64,000 nucleotides of DNA from Acidimicrobiales bacterium (GCA_029577135.1 JARQPW010000003.1:1-64000), one strand, 5' to 3'; positions 3,080 through 24,528 are shown, numbered from the stretch's first letter. The notes: generated from the letters alone by a model not told the origin. Program-made: numbers and translations.

Positions 3080-3161
3080 CAGCTCGGCTCCCGCCGCGGA
3101 TCGCTGCCCGGCGGCCCCGCCGAAAACGCCGTCACGTGGACCGTCGCTCGGATCATGACCC

Positions 3162-3167
3162 TACGAT
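3162..3167 (+). promoter_or_regulatory. -10 hexamer of a leaderless transcript
   Basis: TACGAT lies six bases before the GTG start at 3174. With the usual spacing, transcription would begin at or next to the start codon, which explains the lack of a ribosome binding site. Confidence 0.55.
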
Positions 3168-3173
3168 GCCCCC

Positions 3174-4382
3174 GTGAGCGACCACGATCCACCCGGCGAC
3201 GACCCGAACGACCCGACTCCGTCGGATCCCTTCTCCGGCCTCCCCTTCGTGGGTGACCTGTTCCGGGCCATGGGTGCCGCCGGCCGGGGAGGCGACCCCG
3301 GGCGCCAGATCGCGATGTCGGTGGCCACCGGCGGCCGGAGCGAGCCCAACGTCGACCCCATGGAGCGCATCGAGTGGGAACGCCTCGTGCGCGTCGCCGA
3401 ACTGCAGGTCGCCGATCGCACCGGCCTCGACGTCGCCCGGGGGCATGCGCTCACGATCGAGCCCGTCACCAGGGCGGCCTGGGCATCACGCAGCGTCGAC
3501 GCCCTGCGCCCCCTCCTGGGGCGCCTCGCCGAGACCCTCAACGAGGGTCCGGCGTTCGACGACGTCCCCGAGGGACTCGAGAGCGATCCGACCGCCGCAT
3601 GGATGAAGGGGCTGATCTCCTCGATCAGCCCGCTCATCGCCGGGGTGATGACCGGCACGCTGGTCGGCCGGCTGGCGGCACGCAGCCTCGGCACCTACGA
3701 CCTCCCAATCCCGCGTTCCGACGACTCACTCCTCGTGGTCGCACCGAACGTGGCCGAATTCGGCAGCGAGTGGAACCTCCCGGCCGACGACCTGCGGCTG
3801 TGGGTATGCCTCCACGAGACAGTGCACCACGCCGTGCTCGGCGTGCCGCACGTGCGCGCTGCCCTCACCGACCTCCTCACCCGGCACGCCGGCGCCTTCC
3901 GCAACGACCCGTCCTCCCTCCGGGAACTCGTGGGTGACCTCGACCCGATGGCCGGCCCCGAGGCCCTCGTGGAACTACAACAGGTGATCAACCCCGAACT
4001 CGTCCTCAGTGCCGTCCGGTCGCCCGAACAGGAAGCGCTGCTCCCCCGCCTCGAGGCGCTGGTCGCCGTGGTGATCGGCTACTCCGACCACTTGATGGAC
4101 GAGATCGGTGGACGCCTCGTCACCAACTATCCGATGCTCACCGAGGCACTGCGGAGGCGGCGCGTCCAGACCGACGACGCCGACCGCTTCATCGAACGCA
4201 TCCTCGGCCTGAACCTCACCCAGGAACAGGTCGACCGGGGCACGGCGTTCGTCGCCGGCGTGGTCGATCGGGCCGGCGACGACGGGCTCCGCAGGCTCTG
4301 GGCCGACGAACGACACCTCCCCACGCCCAGCGAGGTCGACGCACCCGGACTGTGGCTGGCCCGCATCGCACTGGACGACTGA
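3174..4382 (+). CDS. Zincin-like metallopeptidase-family protein (DUF2342/Zincin_2)
   Basis: 402 residues. A zinc-protease HExxH motif is present at residues 214-218 (CLHETVHHAV). The whole layout matches the actinobacterial DUF2342 family, often labelled F420-biosynthesis-associated in genome annotations, for which no substrate is established. There is an acidic, Pro-rich N terminus, a hydrophobic stretch around residues 147-170 that may contact membrane, and a mostly helical C-terminal half. No signal peptide is seen. The start is a GTG with a -10 hexamer six bases upstream, so the message is probably leaderless. It converges with the MFS gene that ends at 4390. Confidence 0.82.
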   Translation: MSDHDPPGDDPNDPTPSDPFSGLPFVGDLFRAMGAAGRGGDPGRQIAMSVATGGRSEPNVDPMERIEWERLVRVAELQVADRTGLDVARGHALTIEPVTRAAWASRSVDALRPLLGRLAETLNEGPAFDDVPEGLESDPTAAWMKGLISSISPLIAGVMTGTLVGRLAARSLGTYDLPIPRSDDSLLVVAPNVAEFGSEWNLPADDLRLWVCLHETVHHAVLGVPHVRAALTDLLTRHAGAFRNDPSSLRELVGDLDPMAGPEALVELQQVINPELVLSAVRSPEQEALLPRLEALVAVVIGYSDHLMDEIGGRLVTNYPMLTEALRRRRVQTDDADRFIERILGLNLTQEQVDRGTAFVAGVVDRAGDDGLRRLWADERHLPTPSEVDAPGLWLARIALDD

Positions 4383-4389
4383 CCGACGA

Positions 4390-5742
4390 CTACGGGCTTT
4401 CGTCGCCCTTCTGGCCACGGTGCCAGAACCCCAGTTGACCGTCCGGCCGGTCCGAATGTTCCGGCGTCTGGATGCGGAGGATCCGGTCGAACACGCCCCC
4501 GTAGACGCCCATCACCAGCCACATGGCCACGAGGACGGAGACATAGCCCATCACGGGTCGCAGCGGCAGGACCGTCGGAACGAACGCTCCGACCGCCCAA
4601 CTCAACTGGAACCGCCCCTCGAACCGGGCGAACGAACGACCGTGGTTGGCGTCCGGGGCGTCACGCTGGACGAGCGAGTCGAACGCCAACTTGGCGGCCA
4701 CGGCACAACCGGCGACGGCGACAGCCATTGACACGGCCCCCTGCACTCCTGAGACCCAGACGGCGAAGGCCGCCGCTGCCATCACCAGGAACAGCGCACC
4801 GCCGATGATCCGCTCCTCGGTCAACCGGCGACGGAGGCGCGGCGCCGCGACCGCTCCCACCAACGCACCGATGCCGGCGCCGGCGAGGACGGCACCGAAG
4901 TGCCAGGCAGGCGCACCCGGCGTGCCGAAGACGTTCTCGCCCCGGGCCAGGCCGACGGCGGCACCTCCGGCTCGACCCACGCCCTCGAGCGCAACACCCT
5001 CCTCGCCGCCCCGGAAGGCGAAGGCCAGGAGGAACGTGATGAAGCCGACGGTTGCGCGAAGGACGGCAATGGCCACGGCGCCGTAGAGGATCCCGTGCCG
5101 CCGGAGGTCGGCCCGCTCACCAGCCGCCAGGGGCTCTTCGGCCACCGTGACCGCCTTGAGGCCGATCGCCAGGATGGCTGTGACGACGAAGCCCACGCAC
5201 GCCACCCGCGGCGGCCACTCATGGCCGACGAGCAGGGCCAGGCCGCCGATGCCCGCACCGACCATGCTGCTCACGGCACCCATCAGGGCCAGCTTCGAGT
5301 TGGCCCCGATGAGCTCGCCCTCCGTCCGGACGAGCCCGGGAACGACGGCGCTCTTGGCGACCGAGTAGCCCTTCTGGAGGACGAGGAAGCCGAAGGCCTC
5401 GGGGAACAGCAACAGCCCGTCGATGTGCTCGGACATGAGGTACGCCAGCAGCGCCCGGCCCAGGACCGTGAACACGATCATCAGCCGTCGGCCACCCCTG
5501 ATCCGGTCGACTGCCGGGCCGATCAGCGGCGTCACGACCGCGAAGGGGGCGATCGTGAGCACCAGGTAGAGGGCAACTCGCCAGCGTGCGGCACTCGGGT
5601 CGATCGAGAAGAAGATCGAGCCGGCGAGGGCCACCGCGACCATGGCGTCGCACATGGACGACATGCCGTGTGTCCGCGCCATCTGCGCAAACGGGCTAAC
5701 GGTCCCGTCTGGGTTGCGGGAGCGGGATGCGGAGGGTTCCAC
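4390..5742 (-). CDS. Major facilitator superfamily permease
   Basis: 450 residues with about 10-12 hydrophobic segments and the MFS loop between helices 2 and 3 (GPAVDRIRGGRRLMIV, the G-x-x-x-D-R-x-x-R-R type). It resembles the MFS_3 group of drug or macrolide efflux permeases, but no substrate can be read from the sequence. Cytoplasmic tail of about 25 residues, polar. The GTG start at 5742 has TAACCT seven bases upstream (5750-5755 on the forward strand), fitting a leaderless transcript. A second MFS protein of the same general kind is at 47661-49106. Confidence 0.85.
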   Translation of the reverse strand: MEPSASRSRNPDGTVSPFAQMARTHGMSSMCDAMVAVALAGSIFFSIDPSAARWRVALYLVLTIAPFAVVTPLIGPAVDRIRGGRRLMIVFTVLGRALLAYLMSEHIDGLLLFPEAFGFLVLQKGYSVAKSAVVPGLVRTEGELIGANSKLALMGAVSSMVGAGIGGLALLVGHEWPPRVACVGFVVTAILAIGLKAVTVAEEPLAAGERADLRRHGILYGAVAIAVLRATVGFITFLLAFAFRGGEEGVALEGVGRAGGAAVGLARGENVFGTPGAPAWHFGAVLAGAGIGALVGAVAAPRLRRRLTEERIIGGALFLVMAAAAFAVWVSGVQGAVSMAVAVAGCAVAAKLAFDSLVQRDAPDANHGRSFARFEGRFQLSWAVGAFVPTVLPLRPVMGYVSVLVAMWLVMGVYGGVFDRILRIQTPEHSDRPDGQLGFWHRGQKGDESP

Positions 5743-10067: not shown

Positions 10068-12077
10068 CTAGCGCGATGTGCGCAGGGTCCGGCGCTGGTC
10101 CACGAAGTCGACCAGGACGTAGTCGCCGAGGTTCTGGTTCGTGGTGAAGAAGGCCCGGCCGCCGTTCATCTTCGTCACGGTCTCGATGAACCGCGTCAGG
10201 TACGGGGTGGCGTCGAGCATGAACACGTTGATCCGGATGCCGTCCCGGGTGCAGCGGCGCACCTCGGCGAGTGTCCGGTCCACGGTCTCCTGCGACGGCG
10301 GATAGTTGAACTGCGGGTAGCCCTGGTCGGTGATGTGGGCGGTGGGCTCACCATCGGTGACCATGATGATCTGCCGCGTACCGGTCTGGCGGGCCAGCAT
10401 CTGGCGTGCCAGGACGAGGCCGTGCTGCATGTTGGTGCCGTAGACGTAGTCCCAGGAGACCTCCGGGATGCGCTCCGGCTTGATCTCGCGTGCGACCTCG
10501 CTGAAGGTCACCACGCCGAGGTAGTCGCGGGGGAACTGGGTCGAGATCAGCGAGTGCAACGCCATGGCCACCTTCTTGGCAGGCAGGAAATTGTCGCGCA
10601 TCGGCATCGAGAGGGACAGGTCCAACATCAGCACCGTGGCGGCCTGCACGGTGGACTCGGTGCGCTCGACCTCGAAGTCGTCGGGCGTGAGCTGCACCGG
10701 CGTGCCAACGCCCCCACGGGTGACCGCATTGCGCAGGGTGCGCTCGATGTGGAGGTTGAAGGGGTCGCCGAACTCGTAGGTCTTGGTCGTGTACTCGCGC
10801 TCGTGGCCGACGCCGGACCGCTCCAGGTCGTGGCGGCCCGCCCGGTCGCGCAGGAGGCGGCGGTAGAGGTCGCCGAGGGCGTTCTGGCCGAGGCGGCGGA
10901 TGGCCCGGGGCGTCAGGTTCAACTGGCCCTCGTGGTTGTCGACGAGGCCCGCCTCCTCGAGCATCCGGGCCAGCTCGGACAGGCGTTCGAGACTCTCGGC
11001 CGACTGGTCGCCCAACAGGTCGCGCACCCGGTCGATGTCGACCTCGGCGAGCGCCCCGGGACTCGAAGCCCCCCGCAGCATCTGCTCCAACTGGTCCAGG
11101 TCGGCCAGTTCCTCGAACAGCTCCATGGCCTCACCCATGCCGATCGGTTCCTGTCCGGTCAGGTCGCGCGACTGCTCCCACCCCATCTGCGGAAACAACT
11201 CGCGCAGGTGGCCGCCCAACTGGTCCATCTGCCATTGCAGGTCCATGTCCCCGAGCAGCTGCTCGGACAGTTCCTGGAGCTGGGCCCGCTGTTCGGGCGT
11301 CATGGAGTTGAGCATCTGCTGCATTGCCGCCATCCGTCGGGCCATCACCTCGAGCAGCTCGTCGAGGGTCTGCGGGTTCTCGGGGAAGAAGTCGCCGAAG
11401 CGCTCCATGAACCCGTCGAAGTCGGGTACCTCGCCGGCCCGGTGCTGTTCGAGCATCCGGTTCAGCTCGGCGAGCATGTCCTTCATCCGGGCGATGTCCC
11501 CGGGTGAGAGGTCCTGCATGGCGCCAGCCATCTGGTCGACGGCCTGCTGCATCAACTCCCGGCGGAGTTCCTCGAGGAGGTCCTCGAAGCGTTCGGCGGC
11601 CTCGGCCGAGGTGAAGTCGTAGTCCATCAGGCCGCGGACCTGGCCGGCCAGATTTTCGTGCCCGAGCAGGTCGAGCTGCTCACGACGGCGCTGCGTCGAC
11701 TCGGCGACGACTTCGTCGCCGCCTTCCTCGAGGTCGTCGAGCGAACCCCGCTCGGTCTCCATTACCTCGCCGAGCGCGTCGCGGATCTCGTCGTAGACGC
11801 CGCCCAGGTCGTGCTGTTCGAGCATCTCCCGACGCTGCTGTCGCAGACGCTCGAGCATCTCCCGAAGGCCCTGGAGTCGCTCGCCGTCGACCTCGAGTCC
11901 GTCGTGGAGGATTCGGCGCAGGGCGGCGTTGGGGTCGCCGTGCTCGATCAGCTCGTCGCCCATGGCCTGGAGCAGGGCGTCGGCGTCGAGGTCCGGCACG
12001 GACTGGGTGCCGTCCCAGCGCGAGTAGGTGAAGCGCCTCGACTCCCGGCGGCGTCGCCGCCTGCCCCTCAGTCGCAT
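10068..12077 (-). CDS. VWA-domain protein, partner of a MoxR-type ATPase
   Basis: 669 residues. Residues 1-470 are long charged helices, with many Gln/Glu/Leu/Met heptad-like stretches that look like coiled coil. A von Willebrand A domain follows, with an intact metal site: DLSLS at residues 486-490 and TDGEPT later. VWA proteins of this type act with MoxR or Mg-chelatase-like AAA+ ATPases in assembly or metal insertion. The likely partner is at 16555-18060, 4.5 kb away, and not adjacent as usual. TACGGT at 12084-12089 is six bases before the ATG, supporting this start. Confidence 0.85.
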   Translation of the reverse strand: MRLRGRRRRRRESRRFTYSRWDGTQSVPDLDADALLQAMGDELIEHGDPNAALRRILHDGLEVDGERLQGLREMLERLRQQRREMLEQHDLGGVYDEIRDALGEVMETERGSLDDLEEGGDEVVAESTQRRREQLDLLGHENLAGQVRGLMDYDFTSAEAAERFEDLLEELRRELMQQAVDQMAGAMQDLSPGDIARMKDMLAELNRMLEQHRAGEVPDFDGFMERFGDFFPENPQTLDELLEVMARRMAAMQQMLNSMTPEQRAQLQELSEQLLGDMDLQWQMDQLGGHLRELFPQMGWEQSRDLTGQEPIGMGEAMELFEELADLDQLEQMLRGASSPGALAEVDIDRVRDLLGDQSAESLERLSELARMLEEAGLVDNHEGQLNLTPRAIRRLGQNALGDLYRRLLRDRAGRHDLERSGVGHEREYTTKTYEFGDPFNLHIERTLRNAVTRGGVGTPVQLTPDDFEVERTESTVQAATVLMLDLSLSMPMRDNFLPAKKVAMALHSLISTQFPRDYLGVVTFSEVAREIKPERIPEVSWDYVYGTNMQHGLVLARQMLARQTGTRQIIMVTDGEPTAHITDQGYPQFNYPPSQETVDRTLAEVRRCTRDGIRINVFMLDATPYLTRFIETVTKMNGGRAFFTTNQNLGDYVLVDFVDQRRTLRTSR

Positions 12078-13257: not shown

Positions 13258-14109
13258 ATGCCGATCAACCCCGATGCCGCCGGATCAGTCGGCGAACCCA
13301 GCGAGTTCTCCTGGACGTCGAAGGACAGCCTGCTCTACGCCCTCGGCGTCGGAGCCGGCGTCGCCGACCCCACCGGCTTCGAACTCGAGTTCACGACCGA
13401 GAACAGCAACGGCGTCACGCAGGCCTCCCTGCCGACCCAGGTCGTGGTGATGGGTGGTGGCCGCACCCCGGGCTTCGGCGACTTCAACCCGATGTTCCTG
13501 CTCCACGCCGAGCAGCAGATCACCCTCCACCAGCCGCTGACCCCCGCCGGCACCGCCGTCGCCACCGGCAGGGTCGGCGAGATCTACGACAAGGGCAAGG
13601 CGGCGCTGGTCTACCTCGAGACCGACGTGGCCGACGCCGACGGCAACCCGTGGTGGAGCACCCGGGCCGGACTGTTCATCGGCGGCGAGGGCGGATGGGG
13701 CGGCGACCGCGGCCCGGCCAACACCTGGGAACTCCCCGACCGCGACGCCGACCAGGTGGTGACGTATCCGACCCGCACCGACCAGGCCCTGCTCTACCGG
13801 CTCAACGGCGACCGCAACCCGCTGCACTCCGACCCGACCTTCGCCGCCGGAGCCGGCTTCGACGCACCGATCCTCCACGGCCTGTGCACCTACGGGTTCA
13901 CCGGCCGGGCACTGCTCCACGCCGCCTGCGGCTCCGACACGGCCCGGTTCGCAGGCATGGGCGGCCGCTTCAAGTCGCCGGTGACGCCCGGCGAGACCCT
14001 CGAGGTGCACCTCTGGGAGACCGGAGGCGACAATGACGAGGTCCTGTTCCAGACCCGGGCCACCGACGACCGCGTGGTGTTCGACGGCGGCGTGCTCACC
14101 AGGCACTGA
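13258..14109 (+). CDS. MaoC-type enoyl-CoA hydratase 2 (double hot-dog)
   Basis: 283 residues, the usual length of a two-hot-dog hydratase. The C-terminal half carries the hydratase-2 signature YRLNGDRNPLHSDP with catalytic Asp/His, followed by PILHGLCTYGF. Such enzymes hydrate trans-2-enoyl-CoA to the R-3-hydroxyacyl-CoA in fatty-acid or steroid breakdown. The N-terminal half is the substrate-tunnel hot-dog. ATG at 13258 begins where homology starts (MPINPDAAG); a TAGCGT at 13209-13214 may be its -10 with a short leader. The GH1-like gene follows after 12 bases. Confidence 0.88.
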   Translation: MPINPDAAGSVGEPSEFSWTSKDSLLYALGVGAGVADPTGFELEFTTENSNGVTQASLPTQVVVMGGGRTPGFGDFNPMFLLHAEQQITLHQPLTPAGTAVATGRVGEIYDKGKAALVYLETDVADADGNPWWSTRAGLFIGGEGGWGGDRGPANTWELPDRDADQVVTYPTRTDQALLYRLNGDRNPLHSDPTFAAGAGFDAPILHGLCTYGFTGRALLHAACGSDTARFAGMGGRFKSPVTPGETLEVHLWETGGDNDEVLFQTRATDDRVVFDGGVLTRH

Positions 14110-14121
14110 CCGGCAACAACC

Positions 14122-15339
14122 GTGGCGCTGCCCGAGGGCTTCCGCTGGGGCGCCACCGCCTCTTCGGTGTCGGCCGACGGCGTGGCCCCCACCGCCGACT
14201 GGTCCACGTGGGAGCGCGACGGCCTGGCGCCCCGTTCCGGAGCCGGCGGCGGCTTCACCAGCGACTACGCCGACGACCTCGATCTGGCGGCACGGATCGG
14301 GCTGACCGACGTCCGGGTCACCGTCGAGTGGGCCCGGATCGAGCCGCGCCCCGGGGTCGTCGATTCCGGCGTCGTCGACCACTACCGCGAGGTCCTGGGA
14401 GCTGCCCGCGAGGCTGGCCTGGAACCCTGGGTGACGTTGCACCACACGTCGCTTCCCGGCTGGTTCGCGGAGGACGAGCGGGGCTTCCGGGACGCCTCGT
14501 CCCGCACCCGGTTCTGGGCCCGCCACGTCGACCGCACCGCCGAGCAGTTCGACGACCTGGCCGCCGGCTGGGCGCCCATCGAGGACCCGATCGGCTGGGC
14601 GCTGCGGGGCTTCCTGCTCGGCACCCGCCCGCCCGGCAGGCGCGACCCGGAGCGGGCCCGGGAGGCGATCGGGGGCGTCGTCGAGGCGGCCTTCGATGCC
14701 TGGCGGCTGCTCGCCTCCGGACGCCAGCCGGTCATGGCGGTGCTGGGGATGCCGAGCGTGGTTCCGGTCGATGCCGAAGCCCGCGGCGAGGCCCGCCTGT
14801 GGGAGTCGGTGCTGTGGGACACGTGGCTGCGGGCGCTCGGCGACGGCGAGTTCGGCCTCCCCTGGAAGGCGACCATCGACCGACCCGACCTACAGGGCGT
14901 CGTGGACGTGGTCGGTGTCGTGGCCGACCACCCGGTCGGCATCGACCGCCACGGCGGCTTCCAACCGTACCCGTCCGACGGCCGCACGGACGGCAGTGGC
15001 TTCTGCCCGGTGCCCGAGGAGCTGGGCTTCGTGCTGCGCCGTGTCCACGATGCACTGCCCGACCATGACCTCGTGGTCGCCGCCACGGGCGTCGGCACCA
15101 CCGACGACGACTGGCGCGACGAACTCCTCACCGCCACCATCGACCAGGTCGAGTCGGCGGTCTCCGACGGAGTGCCCGTGACCGGCCTCTTCCACGACTC
15201 GCTGGTCGACGGCTACGAGTGGACCCGCGGCTTCGACGCCCCCCGGGGCCTCGTGACCAGGGACCGCCGCCTCAAGGAGAGCGGCCGCAACCTCAGCCAA
15301 CGAATCACCGGCCACCCCCCGGACGCGTCGCTGAGCTAA
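14122..15339 (+). CDS. Glycoside hydrolase family 1-like protein lacking the catalytic nucleophile
   Basis: 405 residues with the GH1 barrel order: N-terminal LPEGFRWGATASS, helix TSDYADDLDLAARIG, EWARIEPRPG, and the late YEWTRGFDAPRGLV that corresponds to the family's W-x-x-G-y-x-x-R-f-G-L-V block. The acid/base motif W-x-T-x-N-E-P reads W-A-P-I-E-D-P (residues 150-156), so Glu is Asp. The nucleophile motif T-E-N-G reads A-A-T-G (320-323), so the catalytic Glu is absent. It is probably not a retaining glycosidase; a sugar-binding or structural role is more likely. GTG start, 12 bases after the MaoC gene. Confidence 0.72.
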   Translation: MALPEGFRWGATASSVSADGVAPTADWSTWERDGLAPRSGAGGGFTSDYADDLDLAARIGLTDVRVTVEWARIEPRPGVVDSGVVDHYREVLGAAREAGLEPWVTLHHTSLPGWFAEDERGFRDASSRTRFWARHVDRTAEQFDDLAAGWAPIEDPIGWALRGFLLGTRPPGRRDPERAREAIGGVVEAAFDAWRLLASGRQPVMAVLGMPSVVPVDAEARGEARLWESVLWDTWLRALGDGEFGLPWKATIDRPDLQGVVDVVGVVADHPVGIDRHGGFQPYPSDGRTDGSGFCPVPEELGFVLRRVHDALPDHDLVVAATGVGTTDDDWRDELLTATIDQVESAVSDGVPVTGLFHDSLVDGYEWTRGFDAPRGLVTRDRRLKESGRNLSQRITGHPPDASLS

Positions 15340-15346
15340 ATCAGGC

Positions 15347-16201
15347 TCACGAACCCGTTTCGTCGAGGACCATGAGGTAGCCGTCGTCCATCGTCGGCGC
15401 CACGGTGTCCCTACCGACGGGAAGCGGAGACCCGACATGGCGGAACCGCCCGTCCGACTGGGGCCACTCGATCAGGCTCTCGTCGGTCTCAGGTCCGAGC
15501 CACACACACCCCTCGGCCCTCCCTGCCAACTCTCCGGGCAGGCCGTCGAACCCGACCCGGCCGTGGTCCAGGACCACCACCCGGTCGAACGACGCCTCGA
15601 CATCGTCGGTCTGGTGCGTCGACACGATCACCGTGGCCGTCCTGGCGGCGACGGCCAGCACCCGCACGAGGCTGATCCTCTCGTGCGGGTCGAGACCGGC
15701 GAAGGGCTCGTCGAGCAGCACCAGCCCGGGTTGGTCCAGCAGGGCCACGGCGATCCCCAGCCTGCGACGCATACCACCCGACAGCTTGCCGACCTTCTTG
15801 TCGCGCTCGTCGGCAAGGTTGACCCGCTCGAGCGCCCGAACGACCCCGTCGAACCGCTCACCGCTCGGGATGCCCCGCAGCAGCGCCACGTAGTCGAGGA
15901 ACTCGAAAGCACTGAAATGATCGTAGAACGCCAGTTGTTGCGGCAGATAGGTCAACGACCGGCGCACCGCGACCAGATCGTCGCACGGATCGACGCCGGC
16001 CACCGTGAACCGGCCCTCGTCGGGCACCAGCACCGTGGCCAACATCCGCAACAGCGTCGTCTTCCCCGCACCGTTCGGCCCGACCAGACCCACCAGCCCC
16101 ACATCGAACCCGGCCGAGAACCCGTCCACCGCACACACCGACCGATACCGCTTCGTCAAACCAGAAACGACAAGCTTCTGACAAGACCCACTTGGCAACA
16201 T
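15347..16201 (-). CDS. ABC transporter ATP-binding protein
   Basis: 284 residues with a full nucleotide-binding domain: Walker A GPNGAGKTT, Q-loop YLPQQ, signature LSGGMRRRLG, Walker B LVLLDEPFAGLD and H-loop STHQTDD. A C-terminal extension of about 70 residues is typical of drug or lipid exporters of the CcmA type. The ATG at 16201 is preceded by a very strong ribosome site (GGAGGATGAGGAGGT) and shares its A with the stop of the upstream membrane gene (TGATG), so the two are translated together. No full-size permease is present; the 103-residue neighbour is too short for a normal one. Confidence 0.87.
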   Translation of the reverse strand: MLPSGSCQKLVVSGLTKRYRSVCAVDGFSAGFDVGLVGLVGPNGAGKTTLLRMLATVLVPDEGRFTVAGVDPCDDLVAVRRSLTYLPQQLAFYDHFSAFEFLDYVALLRGIPSGERFDGVVRALERVNLADERDKKVGKLSGGMRRRLGIAVALLDQPGLVLLDEPFAGLDPHERISLVRVLAVAARTATVIVSTHQTDDVEASFDRVVVLDHGRVGFDGLPGELAGRAEGCVWLGPETDESLIEWPQSDGRFRHVGSPLPVGRDTVAPTMDDGYLMVLDETGS

Positions 16202-16512
16202 CAGGACCTCCTCATCCTCCAGGCCAACCGGTCCCAGAAGTCGGAGACCAGCAGTCCAATGACCATTACAACGAAACCGCCTCCATAGACCCGATGCGCG
16301 AAGTCCCACCGATCGTGCAACGGATCCGTCAAAACGAGCATCGGATACAGGGCGGAAAGCGCGACCAGGACAGCCAGCATCACCGGCACAACGCCCGCGC
16401 TGCCGCGGATCTCCACATGTGCGTTCTCGAACACCGAGTGGACGAGGAGTGCCAACGCTGCAAAGGCGAGGGCTTCGATCGTCATCGAGTCCGCAGGCAC
16501 GGAAGCCAACAT
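16201..16512 (-). CDS. Small membrane protein coupled to an ABC ATPase
   Basis: 103 residues with three hydrophobic stretches: IEALAFAALALLVHSVF, VVPVMLAVLVALSALYPMLV and YGGGFVVMVIGLLVS. It ends in a basic tail (WRMRRS). The stop overlaps the ATG of the ABC ATPase by one base. It may be a reduced permease or the remains of a longer one: a normal ABC-2 permease would need about six helices. Its DNA is visibly less GC-rich than the flanking MoxR gene, which may mean separate origin. I do not recognise the family. Confidence 0.65.
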   Translation of the reverse strand: MLASVPADSMTIEALAFAALALLVHSVFENAHVEIRGSAGVVPVMLAVLVALSALYPMLVLTDPLHDRWDFAHRVYGGGFVVMVIGLLVSDFWDRLAWRMRRS

Positions 16513-16554
16513 CGGGAGACCCGGCGGCCCGGGTACCCATATGCAAACGATGCG

Positions 16555-18060
16555 TCAGGTGCGGGCCTGGTAGCGGGTTCTCGGGCCGGCGGAGTGCTTG
16601 TTGAGGCGCTTCGACAGGTGCAGCCCCTCGAGGATCAACTCGACGGCGCTGGCGACCACGGCCGGGCCGCTGTCGTCCTCGTCGGCGAGCAGGGCGTCGA
16701 TGGCCGACTGCAGCGCCGGGATCTCGTCGGCCACCAGCACCGCGTAGGCGGCCGACCCCATGTCCTCGCCGGTCGAGACGCCCTCGTGCTCGTCGAAAGC
16801 CTCGACGATCGCCCGGTGCGTCCCACCGGGCACCTGCTCCCGGAACACCGACAGCACCGCCGACGCCACGATGCGCTGGAGGATCTCGGCGTCGCGGTCC
16901 TCGTCGAGGCTCTCGACCTCGACCTTGCCCGACATCGAGGCGGCCACCGCGTCGAGGTCGGACACCCGCGGCACCGCCACCACCTCCTCGGTCCGCAGCG
17001 CCCGGCGGACGGCATTGGCCACGACCGCCTCCAGGTTCGTGACGCTCAGCCGCACCGACACGCCCGACCGCTGGTTGAGGTGCGGGCTGCGACGGGCCTC
17101 CTGGCTGATCGTGGCCACCACCCGTGCCATGAAGTCGGGCACGACGACGGTGAGGTCGGCCACGGTCGGGACCGTCGCCTCCTGCTCGACGATGTCCATC
17201 TCGACCTCGACGTCGAACGGATAGTGGGTACGGATCTGCGAGCCGAAACGGTCCTTGAGCGGCGTGATGATGCGGCCCCGGTTCGTGTAGTCCTCGGGGT
17301 TCGCCGAGGCGAACATGACCACATCGAGCGGCAGGCGGATCTTGTAGCCCCGGATCTGGACGTCGCGCTCCTCGAGCACGTTGAGCAGGCCCACCTGGAT
17401 CCGCTCCGCCAGGTCGGGCAGCTCGTTGATGGCGAAGATGCCCCGGTTGGTGCGCGGCACCAGCCCGTAGTGGAGGGTGAGCTCATCGGACAGGTAGCGG
17501 CCCTCGGCGACCTTGATGGGATCGACCTCGCCGATCAGGTCGGCGATCGACGTGTCGGGCGTGGCCAGCTTCTCGCCGTAGCGGTCGTCACGGTGCACCC
17601 AGTCGAGCGGCGTGTCGTCGCCGTACTCGGCGAGCAGGTCGCGCGCGTGGCGAGACACCGGGTTGTACGGATCGTCGTTGATCTCGGAGCCGGCCACGAT
17701 CGGCATCCACTCGTCGAGCAGGCCGGTCAGGCTGCGGATGAGACGGGTCTTGGCCTGGCCCCGCTCACCCAGGAAGATCACGTCGTGGCCCGCCAACAGG
17801 GCATTCTCGAGCTGCGGCAGGACGGTGTTCTCAAAACCCAGCACCTCGGGGAACAGCGGCTCGCCCGCCCGGATGCGGGCCACGGCGTTGCGCTGCAGTT
17901 CCTCCTTGACCGGCACCGACTCCCAACCGGTCGCCCGGAGCCCACCGATGGTGGTGGGCTGCGTCGTTGCGGCACGTACGGCGTTCAGGCCCCTGAAAGC
18001 GGCGAGGAACTTCGCCGAGGCACCGCCCCGGACTTTGCCGGCGGTCATGGGGCGCGTCAC
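16555..18060 (-). CDS. MoxR/magnesium-chelatase-like AAA+ ATPase
   Basis: 501 residues. AAA+ elements: Walker A-like GERGQAKTR, Walker B AINELPDL, sensor region ANPEDYTNRGRIITPLKDRF, typical of the ChlI/MoxR branch. These ATPases remodel partners through VWA-domain proteins and are used for metal insertion or complex maturation; the VWA protein at 10068-12077 is the obvious candidate. The C-terminal third is a helical lid. Start GTG at 18060 has TAGCGT six bases upstream; an ATG four codons later (18048) is a second choice. Confidence 0.85.
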   Translation of the reverse strand: MTRPMTAGKVRGGASAKFLAAFRGLNAVRAATTQPTTIGGLRATGWESVPVKEELQRNAVARIRAGEPLFPEVLGFENTVLPQLENALLAGHDVIFLGERGQAKTRLIRSLTGLLDEWMPIVAGSEINDDPYNPVSRHARDLLAEYGDDTPLDWVHRDDRYGEKLATPDTSIADLIGEVDPIKVAEGRYLSDELTLHYGLVPRTNRGIFAINELPDLAERIQVGLLNVLEERDVQIRGYKIRLPLDVVMFASANPEDYTNRGRIITPLKDRFGSQIRTHYPFDVEVEMDIVEQEATVPTVADLTVVVPDFMARVVATISQEARRSPHLNQRSGVSVRLSVTNLEAVVANAVRRALRTEEVVAVPRVSDLDAVAASMSGKVEVESLDEDRDAEILQRIVASAVLSVFREQVPGGTHRAIVEAFDEHEGVSTGEDMGSAAYAVLVADEIPALQSAIDALLADEDDSGPAVVASAVELILEGLHLSKRLNKHSAGPRTRYQART

Positions 18061-18066
18061 GACCGC

Positions 18067-18072
18067 ACGCTA
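18067..18072 (-). promoter_or_regulatory. -10 hexamer of a leaderless transcript (MoxR gene)
   Basis: TAGCGT on the reverse strand, six bases before the GTG at 18060. Confidence 0.5.
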
Positions 18073-18124
18073 CATAAACCTGTTCGCCACTACCAGCCGC
18101 GGGTGGGCCGGGCTGCACGGCCGG

Positions 18125-18130
18125 TACGGT
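18125..18130 (+). promoter_or_regulatory. -10 hexamer for the GH2-like gene
   Basis: TACGGT eight bases before the ATG at 18139; it fixes this start and separates the gene from the long open frame that runs in from upstream. Confidence 0.5.
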
Positions 18131-18138
18131 CCCCGCCG

Positions 18139-20223
18139 ATGGAACTGACCGGGCCCTGGCACGCCCACCCCGCCGACAACGCCCTCAGGCGCACCTTCCC
18201 GGACGACGACCTCGACGACGGCGGCTGGCCCGAGGTCCCGGTGCCCGGGCACTGGCGCCGGCACCCCGACTTCGCCGACGAGGACGGACCGCTGCTGTAC
18301 CGCACCCGGTTCGAGGCCGAGGCACCCGACGAGGGCCGCCGCACGTGGCTGGAACTGGACGGCGTCTTCACCCTCGGGGACGTCTGGCTGGACAACTCCT
18401 ACCTCGGCGCCACCGAGGGATACTTCTTCACCCACGCCCTCGAGGTCACGCACCAACTCCGGAACCGAACCGAGCACCTGCTGGCCGTCGAGGTCACCAG
18501 CCCGCCGACCCTGGGACGCTCCGGGCAGCGCACCCTGACCGGCGCCGCCCAGGGCGCCTGGAACCCCGGCGGCATCTGGCAGCCGGTGCGCCTCCGGGAG
18601 ACCGGTCCCGTGCCATTCCGCTACGTCCGGGTCGTTTGCACCGATGCCTCCCCGACCGTCGCCACGCTGGCCCTGCGCGCCGTCGTCGACACCGACCGGC
18701 CACGCGAGGTTGTCTTCCACACGACCGTGCTTGGCGTCGACCACCGCCACCAACAGCCCCTGGCCGCCGGCGAGAACCGCGTCGAGTGGACCGTGCGGGT
18801 GCCCCGACCCCGGCTGTGGTGGCCGTACGAACTCGGCGACCAGCCCCTGTTCGACGTGACCCTCACCGTCACCACCGAGGACAGCGTGGTGAGCGACCGG
18901 GCCACCCGCCGCATCGGGTTCCGCTCGATCCGGATGCGCGACCACCTCTGGCGGATCAACGGCGAGCGGCTGTTCCTGCGCGGCGCCATCGTCCCTCCGC
19001 TGCGCCGCGACCTGGCCGATGTCACCCCCGAATCCGCCGCCGCCGACGTGGCCCTCGCCCGCCACACCGGCCTCAACCTGCTGCGCGTCGCCGCCCATGT
19101 CTCGCACCCGGCCCTCTACGACGCCGCCGACGAGGCCGGGATGCTCGTCTGGCAGGACCTGCCGCTGCGGGGCGAGTACCACCGCTCGGTCCGCGGCCAG
19201 GCCATGCGCCAGGCCCGCGAGATGGTCGACCTCCTCGGCCACCACCCCTCGGTCGTCGTCTGGTGCGGCCACGACGCCCCCGACCCCGTCGACACCACCC
19301 GCCCGGCGCCGAGCCTGCTCGAGCAGCAGCGGCCCAACTGGAACCGCACCGTGCTCGACCGCTCGGTCCGACGGGCACTGCGCCGTGCCGACCCCTCCCG
19401 CCCGGTCGTCGCCCACACCGGCGTGCTCCCGAGCCCGCCCGTCGTCGAGGACGCCGCCGCCCACCTCCGGTTCGGCTGGTACGGCGGCCGTGCCGACGAC
19501 CTGGCCGAGCTCCTGCGCCGCTCCTCCCGGGCGGGCGGGTTCGTGGCGGCCTTCGGCGCCCACTCGGTGCCCGACATCGACCCGGAGCTCCTGGGCCTCG
19601 ACCCCGACCGGTGGCCACTGCCCGACTGGAGCCGGCTCACCGGCGACCCCGACGGCGAACTCGAGGTCCTGCTGGGGCTCTTCCCCCCGGACGACCACGC
19701 CGACCTCGCCACCTGGGCCGACGCCACCCGCCTCCACCAGGCCGAGGTGCTACGCCTCCAGGTCGAGGCCTTGCGGCGCCGCAAGTACCGGCCCTGCGGG
19801 GGGTTCGCCATCGACCGCCTGTTCGACGGCGAACCGTGCGTCAGCGGCTCGCTCCTCGACCACGACCGGCGGCCCAAGCCGGCCCACGCCGCCGCCACCG
19901 CCGCCTGCACCACGACGATCGTCGTCGCCGACCCGCTGCCCGCCCGCCTCCGCGGGGGCGCCACGCTGCTCACCGACGTCGCCGTCGTCCACGACGGGCG
20001 GGAGGCCCTCGGCACCACACGTGTCGATGCGATCCTCGAGATCGCCGGCGACACCCTCACCTGGGCCTGGGAGGGCGACGTCGGAGCCGACTCGTCCGTC
20101 CACGTGGGTCGCATCGAGTGGCCGCTCGGAAATGCACAGGGGGACGTCGTACTCGCACTGGTACTTTCGGCAGGCGGCGTCAGCGCCGCCAACCGGTACA
20201 CCTCCACCGTCGCGGGCGTCTGA
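18139..20223 (+). CDS. Glycoside hydrolase family 2-like protein without catalytic glutamates
   Basis: 694 residues in the GH2/beta-mannosidase order: jelly-roll sugar-binding domain (WLELDGVFTLGDVWLDN), immunoglobulin-like domain (residues about 160-265), then a TIM barrel (INGERLFLRGAIVPP; HPALYDAADEAGMLVWQDLP). In active enzymes the acid/base motif is W-C-G-N-N-E; here it is W-C-G-H-D-A (375-380). The nucleophile S-E-F-G reads A-A-F-G (470-473). Both catalytic Glu are Ala, so hydrolysis is not expected. It may bind glycans or act as a scaffold. A hairpin plus T-run at 20250-20270 closes the gene. Confidence 0.75.
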   Translation: MELTGPWHAHPADNALRRTFPDDDLDDGGWPEVPVPGHWRRHPDFADEDGPLLYRTRFEAEAPDEGRRTWLELDGVFTLGDVWLDNSYLGATEGYFFTHALEVTHQLRNRTEHLLAVEVTSPPTLGRSGQRTLTGAAQGAWNPGGIWQPVRLRETGPVPFRYVRVVCTDASPTVATLALRAVVDTDRPREVVFHTTVLGVDHRHQQPLAAGENRVEWTVRVPRPRLWWPYELGDQPLFDVTLTVTTEDSVVSDRATRRIGFRSIRMRDHLWRINGERLFLRGAIVPPLRRDLADVTPESAAADVALARHTGLNLLRVAAHVSHPALYDAADEAGMLVWQDLPLRGEYHRSVRGQAMRQAREMVDLLGHHPSVVVWCGHDAPDPVDTTRPAPSLLEQQRPNWNRTVLDRSVRRALRRADPSRPVVAHTGVLPSPPVVEDAAAHLRFGWYGGRADDLAELLRRSSRAGGFVAAFGAHSVPDIDPELLGLDPDRWPLPDWSRLTGDPDGELEVLLGLFPPDDHADLATWADATRLHQAEVLRLQVEALRRRKYRPCGGFAIDRLFDGEPCVSGSLLDHDRRPKPAHAAATAACTTTIVVADPLPARLRGGATLLTDVAVVHDGREALGTTRVDAILEIAGDTLTWAWEGDVGADSSVHVGRIEWPLGNAQGDVVLALVLSAGGVSAANRYTSTVAGV

Positions 20224-20315: not shown

Positions 20316-20615
20316 ATGGCACAGACCACCGGCGAGCGCTACCGCGTCGCCCCGGTCCACCACCGCGGCAGGGAATGGCCGTTCCCGCTGAACCTCTACC
20401 AGACCTCCGTCGGCCGCAAGTGGGTGATGGCACTCACCGGCATCGGGCTGATCGGCTTCGTCCTGGCCCACATGGTCGGCAACCTGCACGTGTACAAGGG
20501 CCCGGCCCGAATGCACGAATACGCCGATGGTGCCAAGCGACTCGGCGTAGTCGCGGTTCATCAGCGCGATGAAATCGGATCTCCTTCAGGGCTGAGAGCA
20601 GCCCGGTTTGGTTGA
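20316..20615 (+). pseudogene. sdhC: Truncated succinate dehydrogenase cytochrome b subunit (canonical SdhC)
   Basis: The first 75 or so residues are a normal SdhC of the cytochrome b558 type: LNLYQTSVGRKWVMALTG, first membrane helix with HMVGNLHVY, and GPARMHEYADGAKRLG. The reading then changes to VVAVHQRDEIGSPSG and stops at residue 99, where the family continues with four more helices to about 220 residues. The ATG at 20316 has an ideal GGAGG five bases upstream. So the 5' end of a native sdh operon survives, but the rest was lost when the different sdh genes that follow replaced it. The product cannot hold heme or quinone. Confidence 0.8.
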
Positions 20616-20696
20616 GCATTCCCTTCTTGGCCCACATAGGATCCTCTGTCCTATGGCGGAAGTGTCTCAAGAACAAGAAAGTTTCTCCGGCCAAGC
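20543..20696. other. Junction between broken sdhC and the incoming sdh operon
   Basis: From about 20543 the sdhC homology ends and the base composition drops. The stretch to the next gene has no recognisable product on either strand; no inverted repeats, target duplication or transposase were seen. I read it as the scar of recombination. Confidence 0.45.
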
Positions 20697-21494
20697 GTGG
20701 TACGCCAGATGACGGCGGTGACGGAGACACCGGTCGACATCCGCACCGGCAGTCGATGGCTTGACACCCTGAGAACGGATCGTTGGTGGGTGGAGCCTCT
20801 CGTCACCGTCGGCGTCCTCTCGGCCTTCGTCGTGTATGGCACGTTTGTAGCCTTCGTCAACACGGACTACTTCGTGGACCCGTATCTTTCCCCCTTCTTC
20901 TCACCATGCCTGGCGTCGAACTGTGAGGAGGCGACCTGGGACCTCTTCGGCACTCACTGGGGCTTCTCCCCCGCCCTTCTGATCCTCCCCTTCCCGCTCG
21001 GGTTTCGCCTGACCTGCTACTACTACCGAAAGGCCTACTACCGGTCGTTTCTATGGTCCCCGCCAGCCTGCGCGGTCAGTGACTTCCGCTCCTCCTACAC
21101 CGGTGAGACGAAGTTCCCGCTGATTCTCCAGAACGTCCACCGCTACTTCTTCTTTCTGGCCCTGCCCTTCCCGATCATCCTGCTCTACGACGCTCTCCGG
21201 GCGTTCCGGTTCGAAGGGGAGTTCGGGATGGGCCTCGGCACGTTGATCCTGCTCGCCAATGCGGTGCTGCTGGGCTTGTACACGCTGTCCTGCCACTCTT
21301 GCCGTCATCTGGTCGGTGGAGGAATCAACCTGCTTTCCCAAGCGCCGATCCGCCGTCGTCTTTGGGGCGTGTCGACAAGGTTGAACGCCCGGCACATGCA
21401 GTACGCGTGGGTCAGCCTCTTCGGCGTCCTGATCGCCGACCTTTATGTTCGACTCCTCGCCAACGGCGTGTTCAGCGACCCGAGATTCTTCTGA
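20697..21494 (+). CDS. Membrane anchor subunit of an Sdh1-type succinate dehydrogenase
   Basis: 265 residues with about five membrane helices (near 33-52, 89-107, 149-167, 180-198, 237-255). It is unlike ordinary SdhC/D and matches the plan of the mycobacterial Sdh1 anchor (Rv0249c type). A cluster of ligands C-H-S-C-R-H lies at residues 199-204, and a second Cys pair at 71 and 76. In mycobacterial Sdh1 a Rieske-type [2Fe-2S] centre replaces heme in the membrane; this motif could serve that role (inference). Start is GTG at 20697 or ATG at 20709; neither has a clear ribosome site. The stop overlaps the sdhA start (TGATG). Lower GC than the flanks. Confidence 0.78.
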   Translation: MVRQMTAVTETPVDIRTGSRWLDTLRTDRWWVEPLVTVGVLSAFVVYGTFVAFVNTDYFVDPYLSPFFSPCLASNCEEATWDLFGTHWGFSPALLILPFPLGFRLTCYYYRKAYYRSFLWSPPACAVSDFRSSYTGETKFPLILQNVHRYFFFLALPFPIILLYDALRAFRFEGEFGMGLGTLILLANAVLLGLYTLSCHSCRHLVGGGINLLSQAPIRRRLWGVSTRLNARHMQYAWVSLFGVLIADLYVRLLANGVFSDPRFF

Positions 21495-23290
21495 TGGCAG
21501 ATTTCGAGACTCACCAGTACGACGTCGTTGTGGTTGGTGCGGGCGGCGCAGGACTCCGTGCGGCAATCGAGGCATCGGCCGAGGGAGCGCGTACCGCGCT
21601 GGTCTGCAAATCGTTGTTGGGCAAGGCCCATACCGTCATGGCGGAGGGCGGCATCGCGGCGGCTATGGGCAACGTGTACCCGGAGGACAACTGGAAGGTC
21701 CACTTCCGGGACACCATGCGCGGCGGGAAGATGATGAATGACTGGCGGATGGCACAGATCCATGCCCAGGAAGCTCCGGAGCGGGTCCATGAACTGGAGA
21801 GGTGGGGTGCCCTCTTCGACCGAACGGATGACGGCCGGATCCTCCAACGGGATTTTGGCGGCCACCGTTACGCAAGGCTTGCTCACGTCGGGGACCGAAC
21901 GGGACTCGAGATGATCCGCACCCTCCAGAACAATGCGGTACACCGGGGAATTGACGTATTCATGGAGTGCACGATCACCAGGCTCCTGACCTCGGAGGCC
22001 GGAATCTCTGGCGCGTTCGGTTACTGGCGCGAGTCGGGCCGTTTCGTGGCCTTCAGCGCCCCGGCGGTCGTTCTGGCAACCGGAGGAATCGGCAAAGCAT
22101 TCAAGGTCACCTCGAACTCGTGGGAGTACACGGGCGATGGGCACTTTCTGGCCCTCACCGTAGGCGCCGACCTGATCGACATGGAGTTCGTCCAGTTCCA
22201 CCCGACCGGTATGGTCTGGCCCCCGTCGGTGCGGGGGATTCTTGTTACCGAGGGGGTACGGGGAGACGGTGGGGTCCTGAGGAACTCGTTGGGCGACCGC
22301 TTCATGTTCGAATACATCCCAGAGATGTTCCGAACGGAGACGGCAGAGACCGAGGAAGAGGCGGATCGGTGGTATACGGACAAGAAGAATGCACGTCGGA
22401 CCCCTGACTTGCTCCCGCGCGATGAGGTGGCTCGAGCAATCAACTCTGAGGTCAAGGCCGGTCGCGGCTCGCCCCATGGCGGCGTGTTTCTCGACATCTC
22501 GAGCCGAAGGGACGCCGACTACATTCGACGACGACTGCCATCGATGTACCACCAGTTCAAGGAATTGGCCGACATCGACATCACGACCGCACCCATGGAG
22601 GTGGGTCCCACCTGTCATTACATGATGGGTGGCGTACGTGTGGATCCTGAGACCCAGCAGTCGACCGTTCCCGGACTGTTCGCGGCCGGCGAGGTGGCGG
22701 GAGGCATGCACGGTGCCAACCGCCTGGGTGGGAACTCGCTGTCGGATCTCGTTGTTTTCGGGATGCTCGCCGGGCGGCATGCCGCCGAGCACTCGACTGC
22801 ATCGGGAAGCCCGGCTCCGGTCCCGGAGGAGGTGTTGGACGGTCATGCTGAAGAGGCCCTGGCACCGTTCAACGAACACGGGGAGGAGAACCCTTACTCG
22901 ATCCAGAACGACCTCCAGGAGTGCATGAGCAGTCTCGTCGGCATCATCAGAACGGAGTCCGAGATGCTGGAGGCGCTGGACCGTCTCAAGGTGTTCAAGG
23001 AACGGTTGGCTCGGGTGCATGTGGAAGGCCACCGCCAGTACAACCCGGGCTGGCATCTAGCTCTCGATCTCAGGTCTTTGCTAACGGTGTCCGAGTGCAT
23101 CGCCCGCGCCGCTCTCGAAAGGCAGGAGAGTCGTGGCGCCCAGACCCGCGACGATTTTCCGACCACCGACGACCAATGGGGCAAGCGGCGGGTCGTCATC
23201 CGCCAGCAGGACGGGGAGGTGGTGGTCTCTCAGGAACCCTTGTCGGAGATGCCCGAGGAACTTCGACAACTGGTGGAGGAGGAAGGATGA
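21494..23290 (+). CDS. sdhA: Succinate dehydrogenase flavoprotein subunit (Sdh1 type)
   Basis: 598 residues. FAD-binding N terminus VVVGAGGAGLRAAIEA, the HTVMAEGG block whose His carries covalent FAD in the family, substrate-site FHPTGMVWP, and GANRLGGNSLSD near the end of the capping region. It oxidises succinate to fumarate and passes electrons to SdhB. ATG at 21494 shares one base with the stop of the anchor gene; its own stop overlaps sdhB by ATGA. Length and order (anchor, A, B) fit the mycobacterial Sdh1 operon and not the canonical one whose sdhC remnant precedes it. DNA is visibly less GC-rich than neighbours. Confidence 0.93.
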   Translation: MADFETHQYDVVVVGAGGAGLRAAIEASAEGARTALVCKSLLGKAHTVMAEGGIAAAMGNVYPEDNWKVHFRDTMRGGKMMNDWRMAQIHAQEAPERVHELERWGALFDRTDDGRILQRDFGGHRYARLAHVGDRTGLEMIRTLQNNAVHRGIDVFMECTITRLLTSEAGISGAFGYWRESGRFVAFSAPAVVLATGGIGKAFKVTSNSWEYTGDGHFLALTVGADLIDMEFVQFHPTGMVWPPSVRGILVTEGVRGDGGVLRNSLGDRFMFEYIPEMFRTETAETEEEADRWYTDKKNARRTPDLLPRDEVARAINSEVKAGRGSPHGGVFLDISSRRDADYIRRRLPSMYHQFKELADIDITTAPMEVGPTCHYMMGGVRVDPETQQSTVPGLFAAGEVAGGMHGANRLGGNSLSDLVVFGMLAGRHAAEHSTASGSPAPVPEEVLDGHAEEALAPFNEHGEENPYSIQNDLQECMSSLVGIIRTESEMLEALDRLKVFKERLARVHVEGHRQYNPGWHLALDLRSLLTVSECIARAALERQESRGAQTRDDFPTTDDQWGKRRVVIRQQDGEVVVSQEPLSEMPEELRQLVEEEG

Positions 23291-24036
23291 GCGAGGCCGT
23301 GACCCTGCGGATCTGGCGTGGTGATGCAGAGGGCGGTGAGTTCCGCGAGTACCAGACCTCGACCAGCGAGGGTGAGGTGATCCTCGACGTCATTCACCGG
23401 ATCCAGGCTGAACAGGCGAACGACCTGGCGGTGCGTTGGAACTGTAAGGCCGGCAAGTGTGGATCCTGTAGCGCCGAGGTAGATGGCAAACCCTGCCTCC
23501 TGTGTATGACCCGAATGGATCTGTTCGAAACGGATGAGACGATCACCGTTGCCCCACTGAAAGCCTTCCCGGTGAGCCGGGATCTGGTCACCGACGTGTC
23601 GCTCAACTATGAACTAGCCAAGAAGGTGCCGCCGTTCAACCCGGTACCTCCTGAACCCGACGGCACGTACCGGATGCAGCAGATCGACATCGAACGCGTC
23701 CAGGAGTTCCACAAGTGCATCGAGTGCTTCCTCTGCCAGAACGTGTGCCATGTGATCAGGGACCACGACGACAACAAGAAGCACTTCGCCGGGCCCCGTC
23801 TGTTTATCCGAGTCGCGTCTCTCGACATGCATCCGCTAGACGCCACCGATAGGAAGGACCTGCTAGCCGACGAGTTGGGCTTGGGCATGTGCAACATTAC
23901 GAAATGCTGCACCGAGGTCTGCCCTGAGAACATCAGAATCACCGACAACGCGATCATTCCCCTCAAGGAACGCGTTGTCTCGAGGCGGTACGACCCGGTG
24001 GTCTGGCTGGGGAGGAAACTGCGGAGCAGGACCTGA
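23287..24036 (+). CDS. sdhB: Succinate dehydrogenase iron-sulfur subunit (Sdh1 type)
   Basis: 249 residues. The N-terminal ferredoxin domain binds [2Fe-2S] through CKAGKCGSC plus a later Cys (PCLLC). The C-terminal domain binds [4Fe-4S] and [3Fe-4S] through CIECFLCQNVC and CNITKCCTEVCPE. It carries electrons from the flavin to the membrane subunit. ATG overlaps the sdhA stop (ATGA). The same lower-GC composition and the same order as in mycobacterial Sdh1 show that the three genes arrived together. The composition change ends within the next few hundred bases. Confidence 0.93.
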   Translation: MSEAVTLRIWRGDAEGGEFREYQTSTSEGEVILDVIHRIQAEQANDLAVRWNCKAGKCGSCSAEVDGKPCLLCMTRMDLFETDETITVAPLKAFPVSRDLVTDVSLNYELAKKVPPFNPVPPEPDGTYRMQQIDIERVQEFHKCIECFLCQNVCHVIRDHDDNKKHFAGPRLFIRVASLDMHPLDATDRKDLLADELGLGMCNITKCCTEVCPENIRITDNAIIPLKERVVSRRYDPVVWLGRKLRSRT

Positions 24037-24528
24037 CCTGCCAGGGGTTGGAGGAACCTGCCTGCGACGGCCCCAACTTCGTATGGGAGCCTCGGATGTC
24101 GCCTCGTCTGCGACGGGGCCGACACTGCGCCCCTCCGTTGTCGCTTCGCGCTGGCCTCTGAGGGCCCTGTGTGGGCATGTCCTTCTGCGCATGACCGCAG
24201 GGGCTGGATGGCCTCCCACCCGGCGCGGCCCTGGAGGGAAGCCAGCGAACGCGAGCACGGTTGACGAAACAGGGCCACGGTGCGACAGCGACTGTGGTCA
24301 CTTCGCCCAAGGGTTGGGGGGCTGATCGACACGGTCTCATGTCGACGAGCGACGGGAGGCTGAACGTGCGATCCATCCGGTTCGAGGGACGCTGTCGAAC
24401 CCCGCCCAGCGGGTGAGCCCGAGGTCCCGGTACCGAGCCGGTCCCCTCACGTTCTCGCAACCGACGCCCTGCTGGGCCTTGGAGAACGGCTGACGCGAGA
24501 CGACCCGATACGGACCTTGACAACGAGC
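24037..24528. other. Gene-poor gap after the sdh operon
   Basis: No open frame here has recognisable homology or a good start on either strand. Local structure includes a hairpin with arms GGTTCGA (24379-24385) and TCGAACC (24395-24401), and a repeated CTGCGACGG near 24062 and 24107. It may hold remnants of the replaced sdhA/sdhB or of the donor flank, but I could not align either. No tRNA or known RNA was recognised. Confidence 0.4.

Follow-up and report, generated by a model that had tools for sequence, protein, structure and literature searches.

The window analyzed here is a stretch of 64,000 nucleotides (GCA_029577135.1, JARQPW010000003.1:1-64000) from the 2.35 Mb assembly of a marine bacterium, whose closest named relatives are Acidimicrobiales/Actinomycetota MAGs. 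It encodes homologues of two glycosidase families, GH1 and GH2, within the gene order VWA (minus strand), APH-like kinase, MaoC-like, GH1 (plus), ABC ATPase (minus), MoxR (minus), GH2 (plus) and succinate dehydrogenase (Table 1). By domain content, the locus contains a paired MoxR AAA+ gene and VWA gene, with the MoxR gene divergent from GH2 and separated from it by 78 bp. The GH2 start was placed at 18139, within a longer stop-to-stop frame. No signal peptide is apparent by inspection of either glycosidase homologue, as the GH fold begins at the N-terminus in both models, and a scan of the region for promoters and terminators yielded nothing above chance.

Table 1. Coordinates of the GH1-like and GH2-like genes, their substituted catalytic positions and the neighboring genes, counted from the first nucleotide of the window.
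Feature	Position	Strand	Basis
Protein with a VWA domain, presumed to partner the MoxR ATPase	10068..12077	-	VWA_2 match; order constant across loci
GH1-like protein, 405 aa, GTG start, lacking the catalytic Glu pair	14122..15339	+	
E154-D155, in place of the GH1 Asn-Glu acid/base motif	14581..14586	+	Alignment with catalytic GH1s
A321, GH1 nucleophile position	15082..15084	+	Alignment
ORF for an ABC-transporter ATPase, an insertion in the GH1-MoxR interval	15347..16546	-	
MoxR-type AAA+ ATPase, conserved neighbor	16555..18060	-	AAA_5 match
GH2-like protein, 694 aa, lacking the catalytic Glu pair	18139..20223	+	Pfam GH2 domains
D379-A380, in place of the GH2 Asn-Glu (acid/base)	19273..19278	+	Orthologue and structure alignments
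A471, GH2 nucleophile position	19549..19551	+	Orthologue and structure alignments

Both the (β/α)8 fold and the profile place the first protein in GH1: Pfam PF00232 matches at 91.8 bits against a cut-off of 22.6, and the AlphaFold (AF2) model (pLDDT 95.1) finds its best fold match in 1vff (TM 0.88). The family signatures (T-x-N-E-P at the acid/base, I/V-T-E-N-G at the nucleophile) are missing, however. Twenty catalytic GH1 paralogues from the order of the window bacterium have T-x-N-E-P and [TI]-E-[NS]-G at the positions where the window protein has P-I-E-D-P and A-A-T-G, and the acid/base columns hold N and E in 25/25 aligned catalytic GH1s. In a phmmer alignment to 1vff, the Glu of ITENG lies opposite A321. 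In SGR_2426 of Streptomyces griseus, the acid/base is Glu168 and the nucleophile Glu318 (PMC12369401); its chain 9u98, which has Gly at position 318, aligns there with A321. The residues with which GH1 enzymes bind the glycone (Gln, His, Asn, Tyr and Trp) are largely exchanged as well (Q17S, N154E, Y269D, W359D and N364G), with H108, E366 and W367 retained in the window genus.

The second protein has the jelly-roll, Ig-like and TIM-barrel domains of GH2. The GH2_N2 and GH2 domains score over their cut-offs; the barrel (PF02836) reaches 17.1 bits, below its cut-off of 21. Its AF2 model (pLDDT 91.5) best matches 6byc, a GH2 exo-β-mannanase, at TM 0.79 with most of the length covered. Orthologues mostly read WCGHNEP and FVSEFGAQ, and the catalytic Glu pair of acid/base and nucleophile is replaced here by A380 and A471. 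These align with the mutated positions of XacMan2A chains 6byi and 6byg, described as the E477A acid/base mutant and the E575A nucleophile mutant, respectively. All four substitutions (D155, A321, A380 and A471) and both ORF coordinates are as reported in a preliminary description of this DNA, and its view that the catalytic Glu positions are substituted agrees with the alignments to the solved enzymes 1vff, SGR_2426 and XacMan2A as well as to intact orthologues. Its motif YEWTRGF was misplaced, being found at residues 365-371 of the GH1 protein rather than in GH2. Searches of the source genome with PF00232 and PF02836 matched these two loci only, and a catalytic paralogue that might serve as a partner was not found. 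A second, partial GH2-like copy covering residues 407-694 at 85% identity is present in a congener (G002:C63:7711-8574).

In a survey of Acidimicrobiales, the order VWA-(GH1)-MoxR-GH2 is preserved in 93/98 loci having both MoxR and GH2, and a VWA-GH1-MoxR-GH2 frame is also present in other orders of the class Acidimicrobiia. Some genomes of the window family (f1) encode GH2 and lack GH1, and neither gene was matched in the listed genomes of genus g3, so that GH1 can be dispensed with and the two glycosidase genes do not form an obligate pair. MoxR and VWA also occur at three loci (L127-L129) with no GH2 seen nearby. Downstream of GH2 and on the same strand, the succinate dehydrogenase flavoprotein gene sdhA is found in 31/35 loci of the order with enough flanking sequence; across most of the order, MoxR-VWA genes have a succinate dehydrogenase operon nearby (e.g. 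L100, L107 and L125). The ABC ATPase, which had been cited as a supporting neighbor, offers no evidence of partnership. At this position it is common to the window and a single congener (G001) and is missing in most congeners, so we rejected it as a functional partner, regarding it as a variable insertion without a place in the conserved frame. The GH1-MoxR gap is a variable spot, holding the ABC ATPase in the window and G001 and a different 2.2 kb stretch in L064 (6152-8413), and being empty in L065-L067.

Among 145 GH2 orthologues surveyed, 64 are intact, 28 lack the nucleophile, 10 lack the acid/base and 43 lack both. Within family f1, both Glu are absent from 30/30 members examined, and the 16 GH1 orthologues of this family are likewise substituted throughout, apart from a nucleophile-position Glu in one genome (G008). 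That protein (L044), which reads VDDP with AECG, is the sole member of the disarmed GH1 clade to have this Glu. Being common to every orthologue found in the window family, the substituted state is beyond chance. Across the order, both Glu are retained in 5/56 GH1 matches scored, a set that includes a few fragments and doubtful cases (e.g. G296 and G158). All five genomes with a live GH1 also have a live GH2, and the live GH1 occupies the syntenic locus in four of them and a separate contig in the fifth (G101). GH1s at the VWA-MoxR locus in the other orders of the class are intact for the most part and retain NEP together with the glycone-site Q, Y and W. For this reason, the ancestral state of both genes at this locus was most likely catalytic.

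The losses in the two genes are not tightly coupled across genomes, in keeping with the earlier proposal of separate events in two families. GH1 is disarmed beside an intact GH2 in approximately 10 genomes, and in two genomes of another order an intact GH1 accompanies a GH2 that is disarmed (L252) or has lost its acid/base (L251). A rule by which GH2 is disarmed only if GH1 is disarmed holds in the Acidimicrobiales sample (5/5), but it is broken by L252 and L251; loss of the catalytic residues in one gene thus does not require their loss in the other. The L252 GH2 (2332-4578) reads HDAP...SAFG and groups with the mostly intact GH2s of the class level (97, starred), and its state is an independent, convergent copy of that in the window. 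In a GH2 tree built after removing the motif columns, supported branches force at least 13 switches between live and disarmed states in each of two builds. One clade of disarmed GH1s (n=33) includes the window protein; once the f62 pair and the disarmed groups outside this clade are taken in, supported branches of the GH1 tree force at least 2 changes and the parsimony count is 3. Parsimony is blind to gain versus loss, although the outgroups are live.

Despite the loss of the catalytic residues, both window ORFs are intact and both genes remain under purifying selection. Within the window genus, dN/dS (NG86) of GH1 (0.14-0.18) and GH2 (0.16-0.27) is similar to that of the neighboring MoxR (0.10-0.16) and APH-like (0.17-0.30) genes. 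Over chosen pairs, median GH2 values are 0.166 (f1) and 0.118 (others) for disarmed copies versus 0.171 for live copies, and those of GH1 are 0.157 and 0.109 versus 0.184, all of them rough values because several live pairs are near synonymous saturation. This rough NG86 comparison gives no sign of relaxed selection on the disarmed copies. In the preliminary description, intact orthologues together with high divergence in the window were to be taken as decay; the intact orthologues do exist, but disarmed copies show no increase in dN/dS. The preference expressed there for a selected function over decay is also favored by the intact ORFs, conserved synteny and newly conserved residues. Both proteins combine homology to enzymes, loss of the catalytic residues and retention of the gene by selection, which are the marks of a pseudoenzyme.

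The pockets of the two proteins have changed well beyond the catalytic pair. Live GH2 copies share 133 columns with a conservation of at least 95%, and mean retention of these columns in disarmed copies is 0.88-0.89, which indicates that the fold is kept. Nucleophile loss is tied most closely to three columns: 344, where Q is lost, 379, where N becomes D, and 345, where W becomes G. On supported branches, N379D accompanies nucleophile loss in approximately 7 of 9-10 independent pairs; for the same pairs, absence of Q344 is concordant in 6.4-7.1 and absence of W345 in 5.1-6.6. A sign test on this recurrence gives a median p of 0.016-0.06, which is optimistic because the columns were chosen by a scan of the same data. 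N379D nonetheless carries independent weight, since the classical Asn of clan GH-A occupies this position. Many nucleophile-less GH2 forms retain E380 (HDEP). Members of the window family have A, T, G, S, N or V at this position and keep D379.

For GH1, the columns fixed in all live copies and lost in the disarmed clade belong mainly to the glycone site (F109, N154, E155, Y269, E321, W359 and N364). Conversely, the disarmed clade has 15 columns with a conservation of at least 85% whose residues are almost missing from catalytic GH1s. The new residues include D155, G158, R162 and W227 (each 33/33), G364 (31/33), D359 (30/33) and R375 (29/33), and 32/33 members have E or D at position 154. Pocket membership was judged from strand ends in the AF2 models and from known GH1/GH2 active-site positions; in the GH1 model, D155, D269 and D359 map to the ends of strands 4, 6 and 8 or to positions directly beyond them. 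The loss of Q17, F109, N154, Y269, W359 and N364 argues against plain retention of glycan binding.

Based upon these features, we consider it probable that the two proteins are cytosolic pseudo-glycosidases with repurposed pockets, which descend from catalytic GH1 and GH2 enzymes and act as putative ligand-responsive or structural adaptors. Classical retaining double-displacement hydrolysis is excluded for the window proteins because their nucleophiles are missing, and both probably now have another job. According to this scenario, an ancestral VWA-GH1-MoxR-GH2 locus of the Acidimicrobiia would have encoded catalytic GH1 and GH2 glycosidases, both of which have lost the catalytic Glu pair while remaining under purifying selection with a predicted fold that is normal. 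GH1 has exchanged its sugar-binding residues for a conserved acidic set consisting of E/D154 and D155 (end of strand 4), D269 (after strand 6) and D359 (end of strand 8), and GH2 has gained D379 and lost W345. The remodeled pockets may bind a ligand but leave it uncut, and both proteins would serve as ligand-responsive or structural adaptors, most plausibly tied to the adjacent MoxR-VWA pair; such pairs act in a chaperone-like manner elsewhere (PMC10585395, PMC9976466). It is the genomic context that suggests an adaptor or ligand-sensing role, and the connection to MoxR-VWA is one of synteny. This synteny may reflect no more than a slowly scrambling block, as most genomes have the succinate dehydrogenase operon just as near. 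Glycan sensing, the example initially proposed, would be a plausible function.

The acidic dyads could also support other chemistry. An alternative we regard as unlikely is that both proteins are still enzymes, having dropped the nucleophile and turned the strand-4 pair into an acidic dyad (E/D154-D155 in GH1, D379-E380 in nucleophile-less GH2). GH20 hexosaminidases use an Asp-Glu pair. The dyads would resemble those of the substrate-assisted GH84 (Asp-Asp) and GH20 (Asp-Glu) hexosaminidases, or might provide an acid or a metal site with which some other reaction is carried out; as precedent, the double-Asp motif of GH84 (Asp174-Asp175) operates by neighboring-group participation (PMC4263850). 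The invariant D155 and nearly invariant acidic residue at 154 would fit such a site, as would the repeated coupling of N379D to nucleophile loss, the many GH2 forms keeping E380 and a dN/dS as low as that of live forms. By position, E154-D155 of GH1 would fit the hexosaminidase dyad. The window GH2, however, has D379-A380 only, the general acid at 380 being gone throughout its family while D379 stays, and the acidic dyad is not a general endpoint of GH1 loss, as independent losses outside the main clade do not converge on it. It is similarly unlikely that nucleophile loss plus a gained acid beside the strand-4 acid/base, recurrent in GH2 and present in the main GH1 clade, signals the evolution of another mode of catalysis or of one new ligand site common to both, with the two clan GH-A glycosidases of the locus converted in parallel to a different chemistry.

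Less likely still is a purely structural role, in which the barrels would serve as scaffolds or subunits, either for the MoxR-VWA machinery or in the maturation of respiratory complexes, with no part played by the pocket. The conserved gene order and the downstream sdhA would be expected under such a role, and in E. coli, RavA-ViaA associates with fumarate reductase (PMC10585395). Yet the new pocket residues D155, D359 and D379 are under selection, which suggests that the pocket matters, and MoxR and VWA at L127-L129 have no GH2 seen nearby. Neutral decay, by which two dispensable genes would be eroding in the streamlined genomes of pelagic bacteria and to which the 2.35 Mb genome and the absence of GH1 or both genes from several family members might point, is highly improbable and was rejected, because dN/dS of the disarmed copies (0.11-0.17) equals that of live copies, the ORFs are intact, the disarmed state is uniform over whole families with new invariant residues, and parallel changes occur in relatives with larger genomes.

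Pseudo-glycosidases are already known, including Klotho and the chitinase-like proteins, and the natural examples named in a review are animal and protozoan proteins (PMC7828330). Like the window GH1, α/β-Klotho has a GH1 fold without a functional catalytic pair, which in Klotho is kept for binding; its repeats bind sugar-mimicking FGF motifs (PMC7828330). The Klotho domains are extracellular and arranged in tandem in animals, whereas the bacterial proteins are single-domain, presumably cytosolic and have conserved pocket residues of their own, and we do not claim a common origin of the loss. The nearest solved sequences and folds of the GH1-like protein, SGR_2426 (a GH1 β-1,2-glucan-associated β-glucosidase) and 1vff (a Pyrococcus horikoshii β-glycosidase), are catalytic, unlike the window protein, which lacks both Glu and most glycone-binding residues. 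Similarly, XacMan2A and other GH2 β-mannosidases are nearest to the GH2-like protein; XacMan2A is catalytic, whereas the window GH2 has lost the acid/base and nucleophile as well as W345 and N379 of its live orthologues. The AAA+/VWA pair of the window is of the same kind as RavA-ViaA and NorQ-NorD by domain content, and the MoxR-VWA papers we found do not describe GH1/GH2 pseudo-glycosidases as conserved neighbors. Our literature search, which drew mostly on papers outside subscription journals, found neither bacterial GH1/GH2 pseudo-glycosidases nor this locus, and the word "inactive" is absent from the text of a 2025 GH2 subfamily paper.

Live, half-disarmed and fully disarmed orthologues of one gene thus occur at the same locus within one bacterial class. 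This range of states, with at least 13 switches between them and the changes that recur alongside, makes it testable how an enzyme turns into a non-enzyme and what its non-catalytic function is. If the parallel conversion to a different chemistry were true, live, intermediate and converted orthologues would all still be extant. In addition, automatic β-glucosidase or β-mannosidase labels would be incorrect for these genes in many marine MAGs.

Two further features of the region were observed. Window positions 13700-16080, comprising GH1 and most of the ABC ATPase, are 98-100% identical to congener G001, with flanks at 75-94%, and this segment appears to be a recent recombination tract. Furthermore, nucleotide homology to all five compared congener loci ends at 20527 and returns near 24.26-24.59 kb in the four that reach that far. 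The intervening 20528-24256 carries an sdhC-like frame without homology beyond approximately 70 codons. A succinate dehydrogenase operon comes next, and its SdhA shares only about 26% identity with the SdhA of the congeners. This interval could be either a xenologous replacement or an assembly join.
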